Assembly: GCA_017631255.1 (NCBI GenBank)
Contig: JAGBTP010000024.1
Coordinates: 1-51,709 of the forward strand
Length of the DNA stretch: 51,709 nucleotides
Origin: Alistipes sp.
GTDB lineage: Bacteria; Bacteroidota; Bacteroidia; Bacteroidales; Rikenellaceae
Direction of reading: 5' to 3'
The position numbers and the translations under genes were made by a program. Positions within the stretch are counted from its first letter, which is position 1. Each line of letters opens with the position of its first letter. Below are positions 18,204-28,712 of this stretch, piece by piece. The notes beneath the pieces are model-generated. The model was not told the origin of the DNA. It saw only the letters and a list, made by a program, of their open reading frames with translations, and made no database searches.

Positions 18204-18234
18204 TTGACAAGGGCTCTTTGATGTTGTATATTTG
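18204..18234 (+). promoter_or_regulatory. promoter of the capsid/portal island
   Basis: TTG (18204-18206), 20 nt, TATATTTG (18227-18234): a full match to the host vegetative promoter. It leaves a long leader of about 240 nt before ATG 18481, which contains a terminator-like hairpin. Confidence 0.75.
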
Positions 18235-18394
18235 CACTGTCAAACATTGCTTAACGGCGTAATCAGAGTTTAGGGTTATTAACAGTAAATGGCGAAGGGA
18301 GGTGTTTTGTGGTGGGTGAGTAAAGTAGTATAAATTAGTATTATATAGGTGTGTGTCCGGAATTATTAACTTTTAATTAACATAATTATAAACA

Positions 18395-18447
18395 CTTCGA
18401 CGGCCTGACCTGAGATAGGGTGCAGGGTCGTGTCGAGGGGAGTTTTT
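18395..18447 (+). terminator. leader hairpin with U-tract before the island's first gene
   Basis: CTTCGAC (18395-18401) pairs with GTCGAGG (18432-18438) with one G-U. The inner helices are CCTG (18404-18407) / CAGG (18423-18426) and CCT / AGG. Five T follow at 18443-18447. It lies 34 nt before the start codon and is arranged like an attenuator. A dedicated regulator is not visible. Confidence 0.45.
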
Positions 18448-18480
18448 GCACTAAAATCTTGGAATTAAAATATTTAACTT

Positions 18481-19434
18481 ATGAAGTTTACGACTATACC
18501 TGAAAATGGCTCTTCGTGGCGTGGAAAGTTGGTCTACGCCATCGATTGCGAGTCGGAGGTGGGGCAGGATATTGAGGTGGTGGTGGCCGATGGCACGCTT
18601 GGCCTCAGGGCGTCGTTCAACCTCTACAATGTCACCACTGCGGAGTTCGACATCGCCCCCTATCTGAGGCGTATGGTGAGCGAGCAGCCTACGGCAAATG
18701 TCGAGAGTCTCGCGTGGTCGTCGGCAGCGATGCTGGTGGTGGTGAGTGTGGGTGGCGTAAGTTCGCAGTCACGCCTATACTATCGTGAGGCCATCGACGC
18801 TACGGCGGCGCAGGTGCTCTCAACGCTCAGCGAGAGGGTGGCGATGGCGCAGAACGAGACGCTGCGACTGAGCCTCTTTGCTCTGCGTACGGCGGAGGTG
18901 AGGGTGACGACATACTTGCCGATGGAGCGCACCAAAATATTCACGCTACGCACCTATGGCCGTACGGTGGAGTTCACCTTGCCGCTCGGTGCGTACAGCG
19001 TCGGCAGCACGATAAGGATAGAGTTTGTATGCGACGATGTACGCCTTAAGGTGCTAAGTATCAACATTGTCAAGCGTGAGGCCTCGGCGCGACAGCTTGT
19101 CTGGTACAATGAGCGAGGTGGTGTGGAGTTCTACACCTTTCCGCGCAGCGTGAGGCGCTACTACCGTGCCAAGGAGGGTGCGGGGGCGCAGGGCGAGCAG
19201 CTCTTGCAGTCGAGGTGCGTGGTGCGCCGCCTGCTATCGGCATACGAGGGTGCTGAGGAGATGGAGCGCATAGCCGAGATGATATTTGCGCCAGCGTTGT
19301 ACCTCGCTAAGGAGGGTGAGTGTGAGAGGCTTGAGATTGGTGAGCGCGTGGTGGAGTTCGACGACGAGGGCGGCATTAAGCAGCTTAGGCTCGACATTTA
19401 CGAGCCGTGGAGAGGAGGTGGGCTATGCAGTTAA
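18481..19434 (+). CDS. phage tail-associated structural protein (putative)
   Basis: A 317-residue protein with no signal peptide or membrane segment. It is beta-rich throughout (for example IEVVVADGTLGLRASFNLYN and VRVTTYLPMERTKIFTLR). A segment near residues 205-222 (RQLVWYNERGGVEFYTFPRS) matches a W-N-x-x-G-G-x-x-x-Y-x-F pattern that I associate with tail-tip proteins of Bacteroidetes siphophages; this is recall, not a search. The gene is first in the island and overlaps the next gene by 10 nt, indicating translational coupling. Precise function is unknown. The alternative is another virion surface protein. Confidence 0.55.
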   Translation: MKFTTIPENGSSWRGKLVYAIDCESEVGQDIEVVVADGTLGLRASFNLYNVTTAEFDIAPYLRRMVSEQPTANVESLAWSSAAMLVVVSVGGVSSQSRLYYREAIDATAAQVLSTLSERVAMAQNETLRLSLFALRTAEVRVTTYLPMERTKIFTLRTYGRTVEFTLPLGAYSVGSTIRIEFVCDDVRLKVLSINIVKREASARQLVWYNERGGVEFYTFPRSVRRYYRAKEGAGAQGEQLLQSRCVVRRLLSAYEGAEEMERIAEMIFAPALYLAKEGECERLEIGERVVEFDDEGGIKQLRLDIYEPWRGGGLCS

Positions 19435-21743
19435 CCATTGATGGCGTGGCGCTCAATCTGGCATCTGAGGATGTACGGTTGCCGCTATTTAACGCCTCGA
19501 AGCTACGCAGCGTGGAGGCGTGGCGCGAGGGCGCGAGGGTGGAGCTGCGCGTGGCAGCAACGGCAGCGGCGGTAGAGCTCTTTGGCAATGCGGAGGAGCT
19601 GCACAAGGGGGCAAAATTCAACGACACATACCACCGAGGCGTGCTGACGATAGATGGTGTGAGGGTGATTGAGGGTGTGGTGTCGCTGCTGGGCGTGGAG
19701 CGGGATAACTGCACGCGCTACCGCATCGCAATCCGTTCGGGTGGTGCCGACTGGGCCGATAGTGCGGCACTGACGATGCTCGTGGATAGCGACATAGAGT
19801 CGCAGCGCGTGATGGACCTTGGGTCGATAGTCGAGTCGTGGAGCGACGATGGTGCGGTGCGTATGCTGCCGATGTTTCGTGATAGCTACCCCGAGGCGGA
19901 GGATACGGGGCTATACATAGCGCAGCACACGCTCCTGCCGCAGGAGTACCACCCCTTCATCTCGGTGCGGGCGATTATCGACAGTGTGGTCGGGGGCAAT
20001 GGCTACGAGTTGCGTAGTCGCTTTCTCGACACGGCGATGGCTAAGAAGCTGATGCTCAGTGGTGCGTATAAGCGTGTGGAGTGCGCTCAGGCCAATGCCA
20101 CGATGGGTTTTAAGGCTATGCGCTCGACGACGGCGACGGCGGCAGCCTCGCAGATAGGTCGTGTAGATGCCTGGGGTAGTGCGGGTGGCTCGTACCTCGG
20201 TTATGTGGTTGACACGGTGGATGCGACGACGGTGTGCGACGACGGCACGCTCTGCTCCGAGGCCTACTCTACGGGTGGCTGCTTCCGCTTCGAGGCGGGG
20301 AGACCCGAGTTCTATCCGCGTAGGGAGGTGAGCGTTGCCTTCGACATCCATCTGCGCTACACGACAGACTATCGTATGGTCTCGTCAAAGAGGTTGATGG
20401 GCTTCGATAGGCTCTACTTGGGCAACGAATGCTATGTCGATGTGGAGCTGAGGAACCACTATCGTGACCTGCGAAGCGAGGTGATGAGTGGCATAGAGTA
20501 TCGTCTGGTAATCTTTGACTACGACCCCGAAAGTCTCTATATGTTAGGTGGTTATGGCGAGATCACGGGACCTGAGACGGTGGTGGTATTTGACGAGGGG
20601 TGTGCGACGACGGCGACGCTATATGCCAAGGCCAAAGGGGGTAGGAACTATCAGATTTACTTTGGCGACTGGGCGCTCTATGGTGGCTATGTGGCGATGG
20701 AGGGTAGGCGCGAGGTTAACATCACCATTCGCACGCCATACGAGACCCTCACGCCCACCTCGCCCAAGGTGTTTGACCAGCTATACTTCTACGGCGCAGA
20801 GCAGGGTATGCAGCTAACGCTACACGCAGGGTGCAGCATAGTCCCCATCTTCGGTGCGGCGGCGGGGTATGGCGAGAGCCTCGAGTTTCGTGATGTGGCA
20901 AACCACGCGATAACGCAGGCGCAGTTGCTCGATGCCGTGGCACATATGTTTAACCTGCGCATATACTCGCACGAGGCGTCGCGTCGCCTATATGTCGAGC
21001 CGTATGACGACTTTTATGATGGTGAGGTTGTGGATTGGCGTGATAGGCAGCTTGATGACGGGGTGGAGATTGAGGAGTGTGCCGCCGATAGCTTTATGGT
21101 GACGACGCTCAGCTACCAGCCCTCCGATGGTGCTACGGCACGCCTTACAGAGGGTGATAGTGCGCTGGGGGCGTGGAGCGACCACTTTGAGAGCTATGCC
21201 GCAAAGCAGAGCGTCGACCTGAGGCTCAACCCCTGTCTGGTGGCGACGGCGTCGATGTGTGGAGCTGTGGGTGTGGCGCCCTCGGCAGAGGTGATGATGG
21301 TGGGCGAGAGGGATGTGGTCGACGGCGAGGACTATGTTGCACCACGCATCGCCCTATACCACGGCATTGTGGCTCTTGCAAAGGGTGAGTGGTGGCCCAC
21401 ATCGGGCAATGCGGAGGGCTATCCGCTGGTGGCGTTCCACAGTGCGGCAATGGGCGAGAGCCTCTGTTTCGAGGATAGGGATGGGTGCCGAGGGCTGCAC
21501 GCATACTACGACAAGGAGCTTGAGGAGCAGCATACGCGTGAGATGTTGACTACCTCGTTGCGCCTCCCCGTAGCCGACTATGTGGCACTCTTTGACCCCG
21601 ATGCCGAGGGTGCTACGATACGCTCGCGCTTCAGGCTCAGTGTGGGTGGCAACAGCTCGATATTCCGCCTTGAGGAGATGCTCGCCTACGATGCTGCTAA
21701 GGGCGTGGCGAGGTGTCGCTTCCAGAGACTAACATCTGACTAA
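19425..21743 (+). CDS. large phage tail/baseplate-hub-like protein (putative)
   Basis: The start at ATG 19425 is chosen over an in-frame GTG at 19407 because a purine-rich site (GGAGAGGAGG) lies just before it. The product has 772 residues, is beta-rich and has no signal peptide. Near residues 500-545 it contains TQAQLLDAVAHMFNLRIYSH followed by RRLYVEPYDDFYDGEVVDW, a pattern I associate with tail-hub proteins of Bacteroidetes phages (recall, not searched). A tail-tip or adsorption role is inferred. It overlaps the upstream gene by 10 nt and lies 34 nt before the protease gene. No tape-measure gene precedes it, unlike usual siphophage tail modules. Confidence 0.55.
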   Translation: MQLTIDGVALNLASEDVRLPLFNASKLRSVEAWREGARVELRVAATAAAVELFGNAEELHKGAKFNDTYHRGVLTIDGVRVIEGVVSLLGVERDNCTRYRIAIRSGGADWADSAALTMLVDSDIESQRVMDLGSIVESWSDDGAVRMLPMFRDSYPEAEDTGLYIAQHTLLPQEYHPFISVRAIIDSVVGGNGYELRSRFLDTAMAKKLMLSGAYKRVECAQANATMGFKAMRSTTATAAASQIGRVDAWGSAGGSYLGYVVDTVDATTVCDDGTLCSEAYSTGGCFRFEAGRPEFYPRREVSVAFDIHLRYTTDYRMVSSKRLMGFDRLYLGNECYVDVELRNHYRDLRSEVMSGIEYRLVIFDYDPESLYMLGGYGEITGPETVVVFDEGCATTATLYAKAKGGRNYQIYFGDWALYGGYVAMEGRREVNITIRTPYETLTPTSPKVFDQLYFYGAEQGMQLTLHAGCSIVPIFGAAAGYGESLEFRDVANHAITQAQLLDAVAHMFNLRIYSHEASRRLYVEPYDDFYDGEVVDWRDRQLDDGVEIEECAADSFMVTTLSYQPSDGATARLTEGDSALGAWSDHFESYAAKQSVDLRLNPCLVATASMCGAVGVAPSAEVMMVGERDVVDGEDYVAPRIALYHGIVALAKGEWWPTSGNAEGYPLVAFHSAAMGESLCFEDRDGCRGLHAYYDKELEEQHTREMLTTSLRLPVADYVALFDPDAEGATIRSRFRLSVGGNSSIFRLEEMLAYDAAKGVARCRFQRLTSD

Positions 21744-21777
21744 TAACAAATTAACAACCTAAAACCAACCAACTAAG

Positions 21778-22653
21778 ATGAACAATATTATCAAGATTAA
21801 GAACGAGGTGGACTGTGCCGTCATCGACATTGAGGGCACTATCGGCGTGGCGGAGGAGTGGCAGTTTGGTGACCACGACAGCTATGTGGCTACCTACGAG
21901 CGATTCAAGGAGAGCGTAATGCGCATTGCCGATGTGGAGCATCGTGAGATTCGTGTTAACATCCGCTCTACGGGTGGCAGTGTTCACGACGCGCTGCTCA
22001 TATACGAGGCGCTGCGTGCTACGGGGGCGAAGGTGGTGACCTGCTGCTACGGCTACACCGCCTCGGCAGCAACCATCGTGGCGCAGGCGGCGAGCGTGGG
22101 GTGTCGTCTTGTGGCGCCCTCGTCGCTCTACCTGATTCATAACTCGATAGCCTCGATTGAGGGTAATGTAGAGGAGCTGCGTGCCGAGATCGAGATGTTG
22201 CAGAAGACCGACGAGCGCATTGCGGGCATCTACGCCTCGCGTTCGGGTCGCACCGTGGAGCAGATGGCGGCGCTGATGAGCGAAAATGGTGGTCGTGGTC
22301 GCTGGCTATCACCCGAGGAGGCTATTGCCGAGGGCTTGGTCGATGCCATCGACGAGGAGAGGTCGGAGAGTGGTGGTAGCCCCTCGATTGCTGAGCGTGC
22401 CAAGCGTGGCGTGAAGGCGTTGCTCCGCTCGCTTGGTGTGGGTGTCGATGCCGATGTGCGCGACAAGGTCTTTGATCGTGTGAATGACCGCAAGCGCGCA
22501 GTGGAGAGCTCGATAATCGCCATCGAGGAGGCGCAGCGAGGCGTGGCACGCACAGAGACGAAGAGCGTCAACGACCCCGACCCCGTCGACATCAAGCACG
22601 ACCCTCGCACGATGGCATACGATGCCGACATTCGCAGCATCCGCAGAAGATAA
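21778..22653 (+). CDS. ClpP-class head-maturation protease
   Basis: A 291-residue protein whose first ~195 residues are a ClpP/crotonase-fold serine protease of the phage prohead type. Substrate-strand region: VNIRSTGGSVHDALLIYEAL. Catalytic Ser96 lies in YGYTASAATIVAQAAS, His121 in SSLYLIHNSIAS. An Asp in the following helix (QKTDERIAGIYASRSGRT, probably Asp145) completes the triad. WLSPEEAIAEGLVDAI closes the domain. The polar C-terminal ~95 residues could act as a scaffold or be cleaved (inference). It sits directly upstream of the capsid gene, the usual arrangement for protease and shell. All catalytic residues are intact. Confidence 0.85.
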   Translation: MNNIIKIKNEVDCAVIDIEGTIGVAEEWQFGDHDSYVATYERFKESVMRIADVEHREIRVNIRSTGGSVHDALLIYEALRATGAKVVTCCYGYTASAATIVAQAASVGCRLVAPSSLYLIHNSIASIEGNVEELRAEIEMLQKTDERIAGIYASRSGRTVEQMAALMSENGGRGRWLSPEEAIAEGLVDAIDEERSESGGSPSIAERAKRGVKALLRSLGVGVDADVRDKVFDRVNDRKRAVESSIIAIEEAQRGVARTETKSVNDPDPVDIKHDPRTMAYDADIRSIRRR

Positions 22654-22824
22654 GGGTGCGCGTGGTGAGGGGCATAGGCGTGTGTGCCAAGCAGAGCGAA
22701 AACATATTACAAACCTTTAGAACGGCTCGACAAGCGGTGCCCGCTAAGGCTCGATGCCACCGCCCATAACGCGATGATAAATCGCAGATAAACAACAACT
22801 AACAATCTAAAAACTTTACAAACT

Positions 22825-23793
22825 ATGGGACTTATTGAAAATCCAAAGGCCTACACCGGCCGTGACCTCGAAACCATCTTCTTCCGCCCAATGTTTACGG
22901 GCCAGAACGCCGAACAGCTCGGTATTCGTGTGATGTATAATATGCCTGTGCCCACGACGATTCAGATGTGGAGTCCACGCGCCGATGTCTTGCAGAGCTA
23001 CGCTGCGGGCTGGACAGGTGGCGAGGGCGCGCACATCCAGCAAAAGACCCTCGAACTGAAGCGTATGAAGGCCGAGGTGGGCTTCTCGGCATCGGACTAC
23101 TTCCAGCAGGTATATGAGCTTATCGTGGGTCGTGCCGATGTCAACCTCGACGACCTTACGGGTACGGAGCTCGAACAGGCAGAGACCGAGATGTTTCGTG
23201 CCGCCATTTCAGAGAGCTTGCGTGTGATGATGTGGATTGGTGACCAGACAAAGAGCTCGTACTCGTTGATGGATGGCTTCTTCACGCTGGCGAACAAGTA
23301 CAGCGCAGCGACGACGCTCAATGTGGTGCAGGCACCGGGCGACGGCGTCAACGCAAGCAATGTGGTGGCCTTCCTTAACGAGATGTGGGTCAACGCCTCG
23401 CCAGAGCTTAAGTCGCTCAAGGGTGACGGCAACTTGGTGTTCTTCGTGACTACGGATATTTATGACGCCTACGAGCAGTACCTCGATAGTCACCACGCCG
23501 ATGGTGCATACACTGACCTTGTGTCGGGTCGTCGTGAGCTCTACTACCACGGCGTGAAGCTCGTAGATGCGGGCGTGACGAAGTATATCGCACAGCGTGG
23601 CGATGCAACAACCTCGCACTGCATCCTCACCGACCGCCGCAACTTCGTGCTTGCGGTAAATACGGCCGATTACCCAGGCTCCGAGGTGCGTATGTGGTAC
23701 AATCCCGACATTATGGAGAACCGCCAGCGTGCCATCTTTATGGCGGGTGCCGAGATCCTCGACGAGGAGCTTATGGTGCTGGCTAAGTTCTAA
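22825..23793 (+). CDS. major capsid protein (HK97-type, putative)
   Basis: A 322-residue protein with no signal or membrane segment, preceded by the protease and followed by the portal. Features consistent with a capsid protein are the N-terminal arm (ENPKAYTGRDLETIFFRPMF), a long helix with E-loop-like charged stretch (HIQQKTLELKRMKAEVGFSA), VFFVTTDIYDAYEQYL in the middle, and a C-terminal WYNPDIMENRQRAIFMAGAE resembling the end of an A-domain. No N-terminal scaffold (delta) region is obvious. The call rests mostly on position and length. A 171-nt gap with no recognised signal precedes it; the start has an A-rich upstream region rather than a Shine-Dalgarno site. Confidence 0.72.
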   Translation: MGLIENPKAYTGRDLETIFFRPMFTGQNAEQLGIRVMYNMPVPTTIQMWSPRADVLQSYAAGWTGGEGAHIQQKTLELKRMKAEVGFSASDYFQQVYELIVGRADVNLDDLTGTELEQAETEMFRAAISESLRVMMWIGDQTKSSYSLMDGFFTLANKYSAATTLNVVQAPGDGVNASNVVAFLNEMWVNASPELKSLKGDGNLVFFVTTDIYDAYEQYLDSHHADGAYTDLVSGRRELYYHGVKLVDAGVTKYIAQRGDATTSHCILTDRRNFVLAVNTADYPGSEVRMWYNPDIMENRQRAIFMAGAEILDEELMVLAKF

Positions 23794-23828
23794 GTAAATC
23801 AGGATGTTAACCGTTAAATCGTTGAGTT

Positions 23829-25049
23829 ATGTCAGAGAAGATAGCAACGCGTGTGACATCCATCTCCAACCGCTCCGAGCCACTTCTTGGCTCGGGTGGC
23901 GGGGGTGTCGCATCGCTGGGCGAGGTGTGGCGTTGGGGTAGTGATAATATGCTGCCGTATGCCCTCTCGCTCCTGGCGCGCCGCTCGGTGGCGCACCGAA
24001 GAATTATTAACGACAAGGCCGACTACATCGCTGGCAAGGGCGTGGTGTGCGACGAGCGTAACCTGCTGCTTAGCAGCTTTGTGCAGAGCGTCAATGGCGA
24101 GGGAGATACGCTGCGCAGCATCGTAGCGCGTCTGGCGATGGACGAGGCGATGTTCGGCAATGCCTTCCTTGAGGTGGTGACAAATGCCGACCGTGAGTTC
24201 CTGAGCCTATACCATATCGACGCCTCGAAGTGTCGCATTGCGGGGGACTCGCAAAGTGTCGTATTGCACCATAATTGGGCCGCGTTCAACAAGGCTGAGG
24301 CGCAGAGCATAGCGCTCTATCCGCGATTCGAGGAGATGGAGGATGGCACGATGCGCACGGTGGTGCATTACAAGGACTACGAGCCGATGTTCTCGCACTA
24401 TGGCGTGGCACCCTATGTGGCGGGTCTCGATGCGGCGGCCATAGTCTACAAAACCGACCGATGGAACATCTCGCGTATCGACAACTCGTTCCAGCTTTCG
24501 GGTGTGATGCTCCTCGACGGCGTGGTGGATAGCGAGGCTGAGGCCGACCGTATGGTGCGCCTTGCCGAGGAGAAGTTTGGTGGCAAGCCTGGTCAGGTGC
24601 TCTTCGTGCTGCGCGACGGCGAGGCGGCAGATAGCAACTCATCGCGCTTCGTGCCTATCGACACAAGTTCGGATGGCGATTGGCATAGCCTCCACGCACA
24701 GGCCGAATCAGACCTTGTGGTGGCGCACTCGTGGTTCCGCTCGCTCAGTGGCTTGGACTACGCGTCGGGATTCTCCTCGGAGCGCATACTCCACGAGTAC
24801 GAGGTGGCGCTAAACACCGTAATCCTACCCAAGCAGGCGCAGTTGCTCGAGCCTATACGCCGCATCGTGGGCGATGTGCTGGGCATAGATGCCTCATCGC
24901 TCGATATTGTTAACCGCCCACCCTCGCGTACAAAGCCGTCATATATGCGTATCTGGGAGGCACGCAAGCTCGACGGCTTGGACTACGATGAGAATAGTGC
25001 TGAGCAGCAGCGTTACCTTGCGGAGTTGGGTTCGAGGTATGGCGAGTAG
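23829..25049 (+). CDS. phage portal protein
   Basis: A 406-residue protein, within the usual range for portals. Expected parts are visible: the N-terminal wing (WGSDNMLPYALSLLARRSVA), the helix RRIINDKADYIAGKGV, the FGNAFLEVV and LYHIDASKCRI strands, the clip region, SGLDYASGFSSERILHEYEV (stem helix) and NTVILPKQAQLLEPIRRI leading to the crown. The portal forms the dodecameric DNA gate at one capsid vertex and normally docks the terminase. No terminase gene is present here, which makes an intact portal notable. It lies 35 nt after the capsid gene; the connector gene follows by 59 nt. Confidence 0.85.
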   Translation: MSEKIATRVTSISNRSEPLLGSGGGGVASLGEVWRWGSDNMLPYALSLLARRSVAHRRIINDKADYIAGKGVVCDERNLLLSSFVQSVNGEGDTLRSIVARLAMDEAMFGNAFLEVVTNADREFLSLYHIDASKCRIAGDSQSVVLHHNWAAFNKAEAQSIALYPRFEEMEDGTMRTVVHYKDYEPMFSHYGVAPYVAGLDAAAIVYKTDRWNISRIDNSFQLSGVMLLDGVVDSEAEADRMVRLAEEKFGGKPGQVLFVLRDGEAADSNSSRFVPIDTSSDGDWHSLHAQAESDLVVAHSWFRSLSGLDYASGFSSERILHEYEVALNTVILPKQAQLLEPIRRIVGDVLGIDASSLDIVNRPPSRTKPSYMRIWEARKLDGLDYDENSAEQQRYLAELGSRYGE

Positions 25050-25108
25050 AGACCAGGAGACCTGAGTAGTAATATGTTAGAGATGTGTAATGTGTAAAGC
25101 GAAATGTT

Positions 25109-25567
25109 ATGAATACGACAATTAACCCCGATCAGGTGGTGGAGCTGGCCTTTGGCTCGGCATATACCATAACCTCGTCGAAGATCACCTCGCTCGATAT
25201 CCTTACGGCGGAGACGCGCTACCTCTTGCCCATCGTTGGTGAGGAGCTCTATGCCGCTATCCTTGCGGGTGATTATGGTGCTCTGAAGGAGGAGTATGTG
25301 GCGCCACTCGTTGCGGCGTGGACGCGCTACCTCGTTGAGCCGCAGATACCTGAGCGTTGCGGTAGTGATACGAGGGGCGACTTTACGGAGGCGGACTATA
25401 TGCTCAACAGCAACATCATCCGTCGCCTCAAGGTGTCGGCGTCGACCCTATCGCGTCGCCTGACCAACTACCTCAATGCTCACGCTGCGGAGTTTGAGGA
25501 GTATAACCCGAATAATAACCCTCTAAACCACTGTGTGATGTATGGCGGCGTTGTACAAGTATATTAG
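25109..25567 (+). CDS. head-tail connector-like protein
   Basis: A 152-residue, mainly helical protein (VVELAFGSAYTITSSKITSL, LLPIVGEELYAAILAGDYGA, EYVAPLVAAWTRYLVEPQIP, TLSRRLTNYLNAHAAEFEEY). The pattern resembles the Bacteroidetes phage family DUF6712 of adaptor proteins that sit between portal and tail (family recall). The position right after the portal supports this. It ends in NHCVMYGGVVQVY and overlaps the holin gene by 26 nt. Confidence in phage origin is good, in exact role moderate. Confidence 0.65.
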   Translation: MNTTINPDQVVELAFGSAYTITSSKITSLDILTAETRYLLPIVGEELYAAILAGDYGALKEEYVAPLVAAWTRYLVEPQIPERCGSDTRGDFTEADYMLNSNIIRRLKVSASTLSRRLTNYLNAHAAEFEEYNPNNNPLNHCVMYGGVVQVY

Positions 25568-25967
25568 TGCCGTTGTGCTCTCGCTCTGCGGTTTGCTGTG
25601 CCCCATTGCGCCGCTTATCGCCGCCACCACGCTATTCGTGGTCATCGACTTCATTACGGGCATCCTCGCCTCGCGTGTCGTGGCGCGTCGTGAGGGGCAG
25701 ATGTGGTGGTTCGAGAGTCGCAAGGCGTGGCGTACGGTGGCAAAGGCGGGATTTGTGGCGGTGGCAATAGTGATGATGTGGATTATCGACCACCACCTGT
25801 TGCAGTTTATGCAGCTCAACCTTGCTAATCTCTTTGCGGGCTTTGTCTGCGGCGTGGAGCTATGGTCGTTCCTGGAGAATGCTGCGACGATAAGCCGCTC
25901 GCCACTCTTCGATTGGCTGGGGCGCTGGGTCAAAAGGCGTGTAACGAAGGAGGTAGATAATGAGTAG
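25542..25967 (+). CDS. phage holin-like membrane protein
   Basis: A 141-residue protein with three hydrophobic segments: YISAVVLSLCGLLCPIAPLI followed by TTLFVVIDFITGILASRVV, VAKAGFVAVAIVMMWII, and LANLFAGFVCGVELWSFLEN. The core VVIDFITGILAS followed by a charged loop is typical of the phage holin families found in Bacteroidetes phages. Its basic C-terminal tail (GRWVKRRVTKEV) also fits. Holins time the release of the lytic enzyme across the inner membrane. The start overlaps the connector gene by 26 nt and its end overlaps the lysozyme-like gene by 8 nt, so the two lysis genes are translationally coupled. Confidence 0.82.
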   Translation: MAALYKYISAVVLSLCGLLCPIAPLIAATTLFVVIDFITGILASRVVARREGQMWWFESRKAWRTVAKAGFVAVAIVMMWIIDHHLLQFMQLNLANLFAGFVCGVELWSFLENAATISRSPLFDWLGRWVKRRVTKEVDNE

Positions 25968-26373
25968 AGGACTGAGGAACTGCAATCCAGGAAATATCCG
26001 CCGCTCACGCACAAGGTACGAGGGTGAGGTGGTGCCGAGTGGGGATAGTCAGTTTAAGCAGTTTGAGAGTATGGGCTATGGTTATCGCGCGATGTTTGTG
26101 TTGCTCGACACCTATCGCCGTCGCTATGGCCTTACGACCATTCGTCAGATGCTCAACCGCTACGCCCCGCCAGCGGAGAACTTCACCGAGGGGTATGTGC
26201 GTCTTGTGTCGCAGCAGACGGGGATAGCGCCAGACGAGTGTCTCGATACGCGCTCGCAGCGTGATATGGTGCCTATGGTTGCGGCGATGTCGCGCGTGGA
26301 GAATGGCGTGGCAGCGGTTATGGCCGATGTCGAGCAGGGGTGGCAACTCTTTGCGGCAGGGCTGAAGCCATAG
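25960..26373 (+). CDS. P5-family lysozyme-like endolysin
   Basis: A 137-residue protein without a signal peptide. It begins RGLRNCNPGNIRRSRTRYEG, the characteristic start of the structural protein P5 family, and continues FKQFESMGYGYRAMFVLLDT, TIRQMLNRYAPPAENFTEGY and a final helix. This family is thought to carry a muralytic (transglycosylase-like) domain (family knowledge). Here it follows a holin directly (8-nt overlap at ATGAGTAG), so the pair reads as a lysis cassette. The U-tract hairpin 90 nt downstream marks the end of the island. Confidence 0.82.
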   Translation: MSRGLRNCNPGNIRRSRTRYEGEVVPSGDSQFKQFESMGYGYRAMFVLLDTYRRRYGLTTIRQMLNRYAPPAENFTEGYVRLVSQQTGIAPDECLDTRSQRDMVPMVAAMSRVENGVAAVMADVEQGWQLFAAGLKP

Positions 26374-26387
26374 TTGGGTGGCGGCTC

Positions 26388-26401
26388 TTTGCGGCCGCAA
26401 A
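26388..26401. repeat. 14-bp perfect palindrome after the lysin gene
   Basis: TTTGCGGCCGCAAA reads the same on both strands. The bases CTCTTTGCGGC at 26386-26396 also occur inside the lysin gene at 26347-26357, forming a short direct repeat 39 nt apart. Possibly a protein-binding site or a relic of a duplication. Confidence 0.5.
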
Positions 26402-26463
26402 TGAAAAAAATAGTCGGGCGCAGGGCGGTGTGCTGCGCTCAAGGTTTAGGATTAGTGTGTGGG

Positions 26464-26502
26464 GAGGTTGTGTGGCGCGAGCTGCTCGACCTCTCCTTTT
26501 TT
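26464..26502 (+). terminator. terminator at the end of the island
   Basis: GAGGT (26464-26468) pairs with ACCTC (26489-26493), with an inner CGAG/CTCG hairpin, then TCC and six T (26497-26502). A second inverted repeat overlaps it: CCTCTC and T6 at 26490-26502 against A7 and GAGAGG up to 26520. The region could therefore terminate both strands. Confidence 0.65.
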
Positions 26503-27368: not shown

Positions 27369-28712
27369 ATGAGAAATATGTTGTTGCTTCTCCTTGCCGC
27401 TGCCTTCGGCATCTCGACTATGGCGTGCGGCTGCACCAAGGCAAATGAGGGTGAGCCTACGCCAGCACCAGAGCCGGCAAAGCCTGCGGCTGAACGCTTC
27501 GAGGTGTTCCCGCTGCTCGACCCTAACTCTATACCATACCGCATCCCTGCACTTGCAGTGACAAACGATGGTACGCTTGTGGCAATCTCGGACTTCCGCC
27601 ATAGCGGCACCGATATCGGCGTTACGAACTATGGTCGTATCGACCTGCACTACCGCCTAAGCTACGACAATGGTAACACCTGGACTGAGGTGATGCCTCT
27701 TATCGAGGGTAAGGGTGCCGATGCGACAGACTTTATGAGTGTGGGCTATGGCGACCCCTGCATCGTGGCAGATAGAGAGTCGAGCCGTGTGCTTATGCTC
27801 TCGTGTGCGGGCAATGTCTCGTTCCAGAACGGCACGCGCCAGAACCACCAGTGCATCGCCCGCTTTTATAGCGATGATGGTGGCAAAACTTGGAGCGCAC
27901 CAGAGGATATCGCTGAGAGCATCTATGCGCAGTTCGACGCGTCGACATACGGCCCTGTGAGGTCGATGTTCGTGGCGTCGGGACGCATTATGCAGAGTAG
28001 CACGGTTAAGGTGGGTGCTTACTACCGCCTCTACTGCGCTGTGCTTGTGCGAGATAAGGGTGCAAAGCATATGAACTATGTCCTCTACTCTGACGACTTT
28101 GGTGGTAGCTGGACGGTGCTTGGCGACATCAACACTCCTGCGGTCTACAATACTGCCGACGAGCCTAAGGTCGAGGAGCTGCCTAATGGCAATATCCTCC
28201 TCAGCTCACGCTATACCGGTGGCCGCTACTACAATGTCTACACCTTCAGCGATGTAGCCTCGGCTGCGGGTAGCTGGGATACGGCGCAGTTCTCTGGCGC
28301 AAGCAACAATGGCGTTGCGGCCAAGGATAACTCGACCAATGGCGAGCTTATGGTGCTGCCCGTAGTGCGCGTTGCGGATAACGAGCCTATGCACCTGCTG
28401 TTGCAGTCGTTGCCCCTCGGTCCCGACCGCAAGAATGTGGGTATCTACTACAAGGAGCTTGCCGACGAGCTGGACTACATCTCGCCACATATGATTGCCC
28501 CAGAGTGGACGGGCGTGAAGCAGATTACCACCCTCAACTCGGCATACTCGACAATGGCTTGGCAGAAGGATAACCGCCTTGGCTTCCTCTACGAGGAGGA
28601 GACGCACGGCAAGAGCAACTACGCCTACGGTGGCTATACCATCGTCTACGAGTGCCTTGAGGTGGAGACCATCACCGATGGCAAGTACAAATACAGAGAT
28701 ACGGATAAATAG
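27369..28712 (+). CDS. exo-alpha-sialidase, probable lipoprotein
   Basis: Cleaves terminal sialic acids from glycans (GH33). A 447-residue protein with an N-terminal signal ending STMAC (Cys20, probable lipidation) and an acidic, Pro-rich linker (EGEPTPAPEPAKPAAE). The catalytic six-blade propeller begins with the arginine of YRIPALA. SDFRHSGTDIG carries the Asp expected for acid/base. Asp-boxes are SYDNGNTW, SDDGGKTW and SDDFGGSW. DEPKVEELPNGN provides the Glu partner, and a late Tyr in LNSAYSTMAW is likely the nucleophile. All look intact. It lies 8 nt after the SDR gene and 22 nt before apt. It would release sialic acid at the cell surface, feeding amino-sugar use. Confidence 0.92.
   Translation: MRNMLLLLLAAAFGISTMACGCTKANEGEPTPAPEPAKPAAERFEVFPLLDPNSIPYRIPALAVTNDGTLVAISDFRHSGTDIGVTNYGRIDLHYRLSYDNGNTWTEVMPLIEGKGADATDFMSVGYGDPCIVADRESSRVLMLSCAGNVSFQNGTRQNHQCIARFYSDDGGKTWSAPEDIAESIYAQFDASTYGPVRSMFVASGRIMQSSTVKVGAYYRLYCAVLVRDKGAKHMNYVLYSDDFGGSWTVLGDINTPAVYNTADEPKVEELPNGNILLSSRYTGGRYYNVYTFSDVASAAGSWDTAQFSGASNNGVAAKDNSTNGELMVLPVVRVADNEPMHLLLQSLPLGPDRKNVGIYYKELADELDYISPHMIAPEWTGVKQITTLNSAYSTMAWQKDNRLGFLYEEETHGKSNYAYGGYTIVYECLEVETITDGKYKYRDTDK

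Follow-up and report, generated by a model that had tools for sequence, protein, structure and literature searches.

Gene transfer agents (GTAs) are characterized by a definition of six points (PMC9662315, in the accessible portion of that article). Among the described systems, the one that appears closest in architecture to the element reported here is FpGTA of Faecalibacterium, the likeness being one of layout. As set out in the accessible sections of PMC12946183, FpGTA is found in a gut bacterium, is near-ubiquitous in its genus, is encoded by two unlinked loci (about 125 kb apart in one strain), includes lysis genes and a TerS without obvious DNA-binding domain, and is likely short-tailed (podovirus-like). 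RcGTA and its relatives (Rhodogtaviriformidae) are also multi-locus, vertically inherited and derived from tailed phages (PMC9662315, same portion). Here, we report the analysis of a 51,709-nt stretch of DNA (the window) from Alistipes sp. (GCA_017631255.1, contig JAGBTP010000024.1), which carries a cassette of phage-derived genes. With a probability of roughly 0.72, this cassette forms half of a phage-derived element that the Rikenellaceae have exapted and pass on mainly vertically; the element has two loci and is most likely a GTA. Animal and human guts commonly harbor Alistipes and other Rikenellaceae (PMC12946183, same sections).

The layout of the two loci is not the same in the two gut elements. 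FpGTA belongs to the Bacillota and has its terminase with the head operon and its lysis genes with the second operon (PMC12946183, accessible sections), whereas in the Rikenellaceae element the head genes and, where present, the lysis genes stand together and the terminase stands apart. FpGTA particles and packaged DNA have been demonstrated (same source and sections), whereas the Rikenellaceae element is known from its genes alone. RcGTA belongs to another phylum, keeps a tape measure and a tail, and is likened here by features, not by a tree. A point of likeness is that its TerS binds DNA unspecifically (PMC7947584 in its accessible portion) and that in the Rikenellaceae the classical TerS beside TerL is replaced.

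In the window, eight intact, close-packed open reading frames (ORFs) occupy the + strand at 18481-26373, in agreement with an earlier sequence-only reading of this DNA; a correction to that reading is that the first gene starts at 18481, behind a leader of about 254 nt. The cassette is flanked by prfA (divergent) on one side and by an SDR gene on the other. In what follows, G000 is the window's genome (86% complete), other G numbers are compared genomes, and L numbers are loci or contigs. The features are:

18204..18234, + strand: promoter, TTGACA -33 box and TATATTTG -7 box
18227..18480, + strand: leader, 254 nt, with TTAT..ACA motifs at 18276-18284 and 18386-18394
18481..19434, + strand: P1, 317 aa, phage tail/baseplate-like by position, the fastest-evolving gene
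19407..21743, + strand: P2, 778 aa from the first GTG, likely start ATG at 19425, tail hub/adhesin-like
21778..22653, + strand: ClpP-class prohead protease, 291 aa, Ser96/His121, PF00574
22825..23793, + strand: major capsid protein candidate, 322 aa, phrog_1623
23829..25049, + strand: portal protein, 406 aa, PF04860 and phrog_11226
25109..25567, + strand: DUF6712-like head-tail connector candidate, 152 aa, PF20459 below cut-off
25542..25967, + strand: holin, 141 aa, PF05105 (1.9e-13)
25960..26373, + strand: lysin, 137 aa, phrog_873 endolysin (1e-41)
G000:C13:10028-11554, on a contig separate from the window: TerL, preceded by a 96-aa ORF and divergent from an S24 repressor

The protein identities proposed from the letters alone were borne out by family matches for the protease (PF00574, 1.8e-29; also phrog_94), the portal (PF04860, 5.7e-10; phrog_11226, 1e-19), the holin, the lysin and the capsid protein (phrog_1623, 2e-5, a family that 12 sequences out of 13 in capsid alignment A8 match). 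The protease residues Ser96 and His121, described as intact in the window, were unchanged in all 77 of 77 sequences. The window's connector scored 18.7 bits with PF20459, short of the cut-off of 25; its relative in L180 reached 2e-12. P1 and P2 gave no family match above cut-off, and they are called tail-like because their homologues precede the tape measure in a prophage of G006. P2 matched the product of the gene before this tape measure at 23% over 316 aa (E 1.9e-21), and P1 was linked to its prophage homologue solely via intermediate Alistipes sequences.

The absence of a terminase, as first noted, applies to the cassette and not to the genome, since TerL was found on contig C13. The trio formed by the repressor, the 96-aa protein and TerL is recurrent across genera; the repressors of G097 and G102 are divergent and may be non-orthologous, and some TerL loci are without a detected 96-aa protein. 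TerL is present in 58 of 61 Alistipes genomes and in 96 of 100 genomes of the family (94 of the 98 near-complete ones, i.e. at least 90% complete). Its motifs PPQHGKS and ILDD and its residues D350, D353 and D482 are near-invariant among 43 TerLs. In a PDB search, TerL retrieved one terminase chain, 8dgc (E 0.0025), ranked behind two epimerase entries (0.001). Among phage records, those of the Bacteroides fragilis siphophages of the B40-8 group ranked best for TerL, with 89% of the query aligned at 47-48% identity.

The distance between portal and TerL varies widely: 2.5 kb in G097, 2-3 kb in G111, G124 and G091, 8 kb in G146 and 10 kb in G112 (both with TerL downstream), 11-12 kb in G121, G154 and G142, 18 kb in G140, 0.2 Mb in G092, 0.75 Mb in G133 and 2.6 Mb in G180. 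In G168 the two genes lie at 1.26 and 3.27 Mb of a 3.38-Mb contig, a gap of 2.0 Mb, or of 1.36 Mb if the contig is circular; loci more than 1 Mb apart would be too far from each other for one head.

These data bear on the idea, raised by the sequence-only reading, of a phage satellite that borrows the terminase and the tail of a helper. A cassette which itself lacks a terminase and a long tail is what such a satellite would look like. This explanation is nevertheless scarcely credible, as nearly all near-complete genomes sampled carry a terminase of their own, and inheritance of the nearly fixed element is mainly vertical. A related prophage that carries TerL together with the portal on a single contig was observed in one genome, G006, and not as a constant helper. 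In line with the first statement on it, no integrase-like family was found among the 10 proteins scanned (eight flanking ones in the window and two neighbours of TerL). Neither an integrase (in the flanks) nor the patchy presence of a PICI-like (phage-inducible chromosomal island) satellite was observed.

Portal relatives in named genomes numbered 257, nearly all labeled Alistipes or Rikenellaceae, and the best 80 were fetched (L112-L191, the named loci). The closest relatives come from metagenome-assembled genomes of the ruminant gut, and the carriers include isolate records (Alistipes sp. An66, Marseille-P5061, CHKCI003 and A. montrealensis). The portal was detected in 35 of 37 Alistipes genomes including its own (the two misses being 74% and 71% complete) and in 1 of 24 genomes of other families. 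With a portal profile, 131 of 150 Rikenellaceae genomes were positive, including 95 of 99 near-complete ones and 17 of 22 genera, and all but 4 of the 131 gave a single match row. In an order-wide sample the portal was found in 5 of 159 genomes, two of them from Rikenellaceae; the matches in 3 of 157 non-Rikenellaceae genomes of the order were weaker (best E 7e-84, then about 4e-17). The cassette is thus nearly fixed within one family, the Rikenellaceae. In a tree of 33 + 5 portal sequences, which includes 19 of the 80 named loci, 32 Rikenellaceae portals and the IMG/VR cassette contig L196 fall into a single clade that excludes five phage portals (support 0.93). As a separate observation, G182 (C22 and C84) shows two full-length portal matches, either a second element or contamination.

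The full set of eight genes was recovered from 54 of the 80 named loci, and no locus violates the gene order. Among the 26 incomplete loci, nine are explained by the end of the fetched sequence and two by weak tblastn matches, the gene being recovered with a hidden Markov model (HMM). Detected genes correspond to open ORF spans with one exception, cut by a sequence end. Seven ORFs are shorter than 80% of the median length; six lie at sequence ends and the other is P2 of L116 (L116:6156-7703), which has just 515 aa away from a sequence end, where a frameshift or an assembly error is possible.

Selection was estimated from 84 close pairs (portal dS < 0.8, dN < 0.1), each gene being represented by the 48 to 84 pairs that contain it; gene pairs with dS outside 0.02-1.2 or with at most 60 codons were removed, and distant pairs were saturated. 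The median dN/dS values (omega), a comparison which the sequence-only reading had called for, were all well below 1 (0.11-0.39): P1 0.39 (48 pairs), P2 0.28, protease 0.18, capsid 0.24, portal 0.11, connector 0.31, holin 0.20 and lysin 0.24, next to 0.02 for prfA (5 pairs). Values of at least 0.5 were obtained in 7 of 84 connector, 6 of 70 holin and 1 of 48 P1 pairs, with a maximum of 1.35 (connector). Selection on the cassette is mostly purifying.

A decaying prophage remnant kept by chance would explain why many genes of a full phage, such as the prophage of G006, are missing, and it is compatible with the shortened P2 of L116, with the degraded-looking L152 and with some portal and TerL matches that are split or contain stops. 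We consider it highly improbable. The cassette is present in 95 of 99 near-complete genomes of the family with the omega medians given above, its ORFs are full-length in nearly all loci (sequence ends aside), and its catalytic residues are conserved. Pseudogenes, an omega near 1 and sporadic presence were not what was found, L152 and L116 being the exceptions; likewise, neither a locus confined to a single strain, with pseudogenes elsewhere, nor a recently reduced prophage was seen in general.

The mode of inheritance was examined by comparing portal, TerL and RecG trees of 19 Alistipes genomes. The portal and RecG trees have 12 of 16 splits in common, with one supported conflict and a Mantel r of 0.86. 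The TerL and RecG trees have 9 of 16 splits in common (Mantel r 0.86), and the portal and TerL trees 7 of 16, with three supported conflicts. Over the three tree pairs, Mantel r ranged from 0.77 to 0.86, and 0 of 2000 permutations reached values as high. Descent is mainly vertical; exchange has occurred to some extent, chiefly of TerL and close to the window's clade. The chromosomal site itself varies: the prfA neighborhood of the window is shared in part, prfA being divergently upstream in 26 of the 61 loci with enough sequence.

The origin of the cassette can be followed in G006, which carries its own cassette copy plus a related prophage (C31; L091-L093, G006:C31:15001-75000). This prophage has TerS (PF03592), TerL, three small genes, a P1-like and a P2-like gene and a tape measure (phrog_167); the protease and the capsid gene come next, then a gene for a 171-aa protein, the portal, the connector and fibre-like genes. 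Its capsid and portal are 47% and 48% identical to those of the window. In the IMG/VR phage L197 the genes are P2, tape measure, one for a 91-aa protein (where cassettes have an 88-aa protein), protease, capsid, one for a 172-aa protein and portal. Both share with the cassette the series from P2 through protease and capsid to portal; unlike it, they have a tape measure and are single records, not family-wide, and the G006 prophage also has a classical TerS, tail-fibre-like genes and its terminase in one piece with the rest. Because prophage G006 and phage L197 have the same order, the tail-before-head arrangement of the window is ancestral, and a rearrangement as its cause is ruled out; what was first noted as a reversed order is the usual one in this phage family. 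In the cassette genomes, the place of the TerS that adjoins TerL in the prophage is taken by the 96-aa protein without recognised domain.

Intermediate arrangements were also found. In G121 (genus g44), a cluster of about 14 kb contains TerL, a neck-like gene (n137), P1, P2, a 100-aa ORF and the 88-aa protein, then protease, capsid, a tube-like protein and portal; an unrelated-looking gene separates TerL from n137. "Tube-like" and "neck-like" are positional labels, with no family or PDB match behind them. PDB sequence searches with the P1, P2, tube-like, capsid, portal and connector profiles gave no credible match. Among the 80 named loci, some of which are cut, 55 have the 88-aa protein, 13 the tube-like gene and 10 n137. 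The protease reading frame of G022 encloses the 88-aa domain, and G064 looks similar. In L235, L236, L237, L239, L180, L230 and L228, ORFs of 100-250 aa lie between P2 and the 88-aa gene. These tape-measure-position ORFs have a variable body and a conserved C-terminal VYVLESDIT..AQ..V motif, one being fused to P2 in L247; none was found in the scanned Alistipes cassette loci. Their assignment as true tape measures in the non-Alistipes genera was rejected, as the G006 protein scored 0.1 bits and the best shuffled control 5.5, so that position is what supports this identity.

A tape measure and a tail tube, first noted as missing from the cassette, were also undetected in the window's genome. 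A relocation of tail genes in G000 was rejected, since the 88-aa, tube-like, neck-like and tape-measure-position profiles found nothing at E <= 0.1; of the search proposed for unlinked genes, TerL was thus the only part to succeed. The G006 tape measure, searched in 12 genomes, matched in G006 only. A siphovirus-type tail, with encoded tape measure and tail tube, is therefore not found in G000, barring unrecognised or unassembled genes.

Such a loss would also be expected of an exapted head device that does not transfer genes, i.e. a particle, with or without packaged DNA, that serves altruistic lysis, the release of DNA or the killing of competitors. In the window's clade the tape measure, tube-like and neck-like genes are lost and the head and motor genes retained; P1 evolves fastest, followed by the connector and P2, which fits a killing adhesin too; and some relatives are without lysis genes. 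Against this explanation stand the packaging ATPase/nuclease and the portal, both kept under selection, which points to DNA loading. The pattern is, moreover, the opposite of a tailocin, which keeps the tail and drops the head and the terminase. Altogether, we regard a head device of this kind as rather unlikely.

In the two-locus GTA-like element that we favor, locus 1 (the window) would provide a head made of protease-matured capsid, portal and connector, together with the adhesin- or hub-like tail proteins P1 and P2 and a holin-lysin pair. Locus 2 (C13) would provide the packaging motor, TerL, with the 96-aa protein in the TerS position, divergent from the S24 repressor. DNA damage or another signal may lead to cleavage of the repressor and thereby free TerL, and the head operon would be turned on through its promoter and the leader with its repeats. 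TerL, which lacks the related phage's classical TerS at its side, may then fill the heads with chromosomal DNA; holin and lysin would burst the producing cell, and the tail-reduced particle would attach to kin through P1 and P2. These steps, and the function of the element, are inferred.

Regarding the repressor, Ala101, Gly102, Ser137 and Lys180 are kept in 24, 25, 25 and 25 of 26 sequences, respectively, and the combination of Ala-Gly, Ser and Lys is the signature of self-cleaving LexA/CI repressors. In the TerL promoter regions, the palindrome TTCAANNNTTGAA was found with at most one mismatch in 21 of 26 (0.7 expected in shuffles), at a common position in 17 of 26, and CAAAGTTAA in 24 of 26 (1.3 in shuffles; at most one mismatch). 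Both are conserved round the TerL promoter across genera (S24/ter96 intergenic regions, L101-L110 and L229-L240).

The head operon has the promoter predicted from the sequence, TTGACA-17-TATATTTG, which matches 11 of 12 sigma-70 consensus bases; the terminator predicted with it was not recovered, no terminator-like site being found in a scan of the 3' end of the cluster. A TTGAC-like box with TANNTTTG lies upstream of P1 in 55 of 68 P1-bearing Alistipes loci, and the leader measures 240-259 nt in 28 of the 29 prfA-linked relatives whose promoter was detected (218 nt in the remaining one). The motif TTAT[CT]AACA occurs 63 times in 11,129 nt of 45 leaders versus 35 times in 1,712,442 nt, both strands, of the rest of 44 of these loci, a density about 280-fold higher. 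TTAT..ACA, which resembles a DnaA box, was seen 94 times in leaders (3.4 expected); since its reverse complement is at chance level (2 seen, 2.2 expected), the motif is directional. A structured leader RNA was not supported, the fold z ranging inconsistently from -5.2 to +1.0 over 12 leaders, and an attenuator seen by eye was not confirmed. An activator-site-like inverted repeat, TTTTTCCA-N7-TGGAAAAA, was noticed by eye 5' of the head-operon promoter in many Alistipes loci (L150-L187). An operator shared by the head and TerL operons was rejected: the 10-mer GTTAAGCAAT is present, inverted, in both G000 promoter regions, but among the core promoters compared by eye a similar sequence is confined to close sister species.

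When the element is set beside the six points of the GTA definition (PMC9662315, accessible portion), three are matched. Its proteins are of tailed-phage descent, as indicated by the portal, protease, TerL, holin, lysin and capsid families and the homologous prophage. It is fully endogenised, at more than one locus, with portal and TerL apart and no integrase among the 10 flanking proteins. Finally, its inheritance is mostly vertical, with co-diversification with the host, the supported conflicts with RecG being one for portal and four for TerL. The other three points of the definition are that the element does not fit completely into its own particles, that these particles hold mainly random DNA of the host, and that this DNA reaches other cells; the spacing of over 1 Mb in G168 bears on the first of these. 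Together with the family-wide presence, the low dN/dS and the unlinked terminase, this agrees with the sequence-only proposal that the genes are retained for a domesticated or GTA-like function.

Several observations weigh against this interpretation. In 15 of the 80 named loci, neither tblastn nor HMM revealed the holin and/or the lysin although the sequence leaves room for it, which makes the head genes the constant part and the lysis genes not universal. L152 (7000-12100) looks degraded, with short P2 and protease pieces only and no detected holin or lysin. Twelve portal match rows count an internal stop, and the portal of G148 is in two overlapping pieces; TerL is split in two in G008, G155, G125 and G152, and a stop is counted within it in G071, G082 and G090. 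The TerL and RecG trees contain four supported conflicting split pairs, and the window's own TerL promoter fits the palindrome TTCAANNNTTGAA at an uncommon position only. In G000 (86% complete), the tube-like A2, neck-like A6 and tape-measure-position A7 profiles had no match, so that delivery would need an unusual mechanism or unrecognised genes. As described in the accessible sections of PMC12946183, Rikenellaceae were among the most abundant families in the total faecal DNA of three donors, the particle fractions being dominated by others (the difference not significant), and GTA-like packaging was found mainly in Ruminococcaceae; these data speak against strong constitutive production in those three donors. 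On a related point, the suspicion of pseudogene portals in genera g31 and g32 was not borne out in G111 and G124, the two among these 12 rows that were checked, whose aligned core 28-400 is free of stops.

A further-reaching proposal, which we advance tentatively and at somewhat less than even odds, is that the element may be the first GTA of the Bacteroidota, having in Alistipes shed tape measure, tube and neck stepwise. It would be a near-tailless, selection-kept head for chromosomal DNA with an unlinked, SOS-type-repressed terminase, either a tail-less GTA or a DNA-export capsule. In the literature listings searched, which take in few preprints and no subscription papers, there was no report of a GTA locus from Bacteroidota. 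With a DNA-packaging element throughout one of their families, the Bacteroidota would have a built-in route of gene flow, and the graded series, which runs from a phage over linked clusters to a pair of unlinked loci that have no tape measure, bears on which phage parts hosts keep. As carrier isolates exist, the GTA idea is directly testable.

Prophage surveys may file such a cassette as an "incomplete prophage", and pieces of it seem present in IMG/VR as short viral contigs. Viral-filed short contigs (L032-L034 and L192-L196 from IMG/VR; L256 and L257) match the cassette portal at 49-70% and may be host cassette DNA; L256 (MT838805.1) and L257 (MT838736.1) are unverified human faecal scaffolds from Mexico. 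The 112 phage records matching the window portal comprise 108 from Streptomyces, 2 from Yersinia and 2 unnamed faecal scaffolds, none being a named Bacteroides phage; the Streptomyces portals are 21-24% identical to it among the matches listed. Elsewhere in the window, downstream of the SDR gene, a secreted sialidase-like protein with BNR repeats (PF13088, 7.5e-11) is encoded at 27369-28712.

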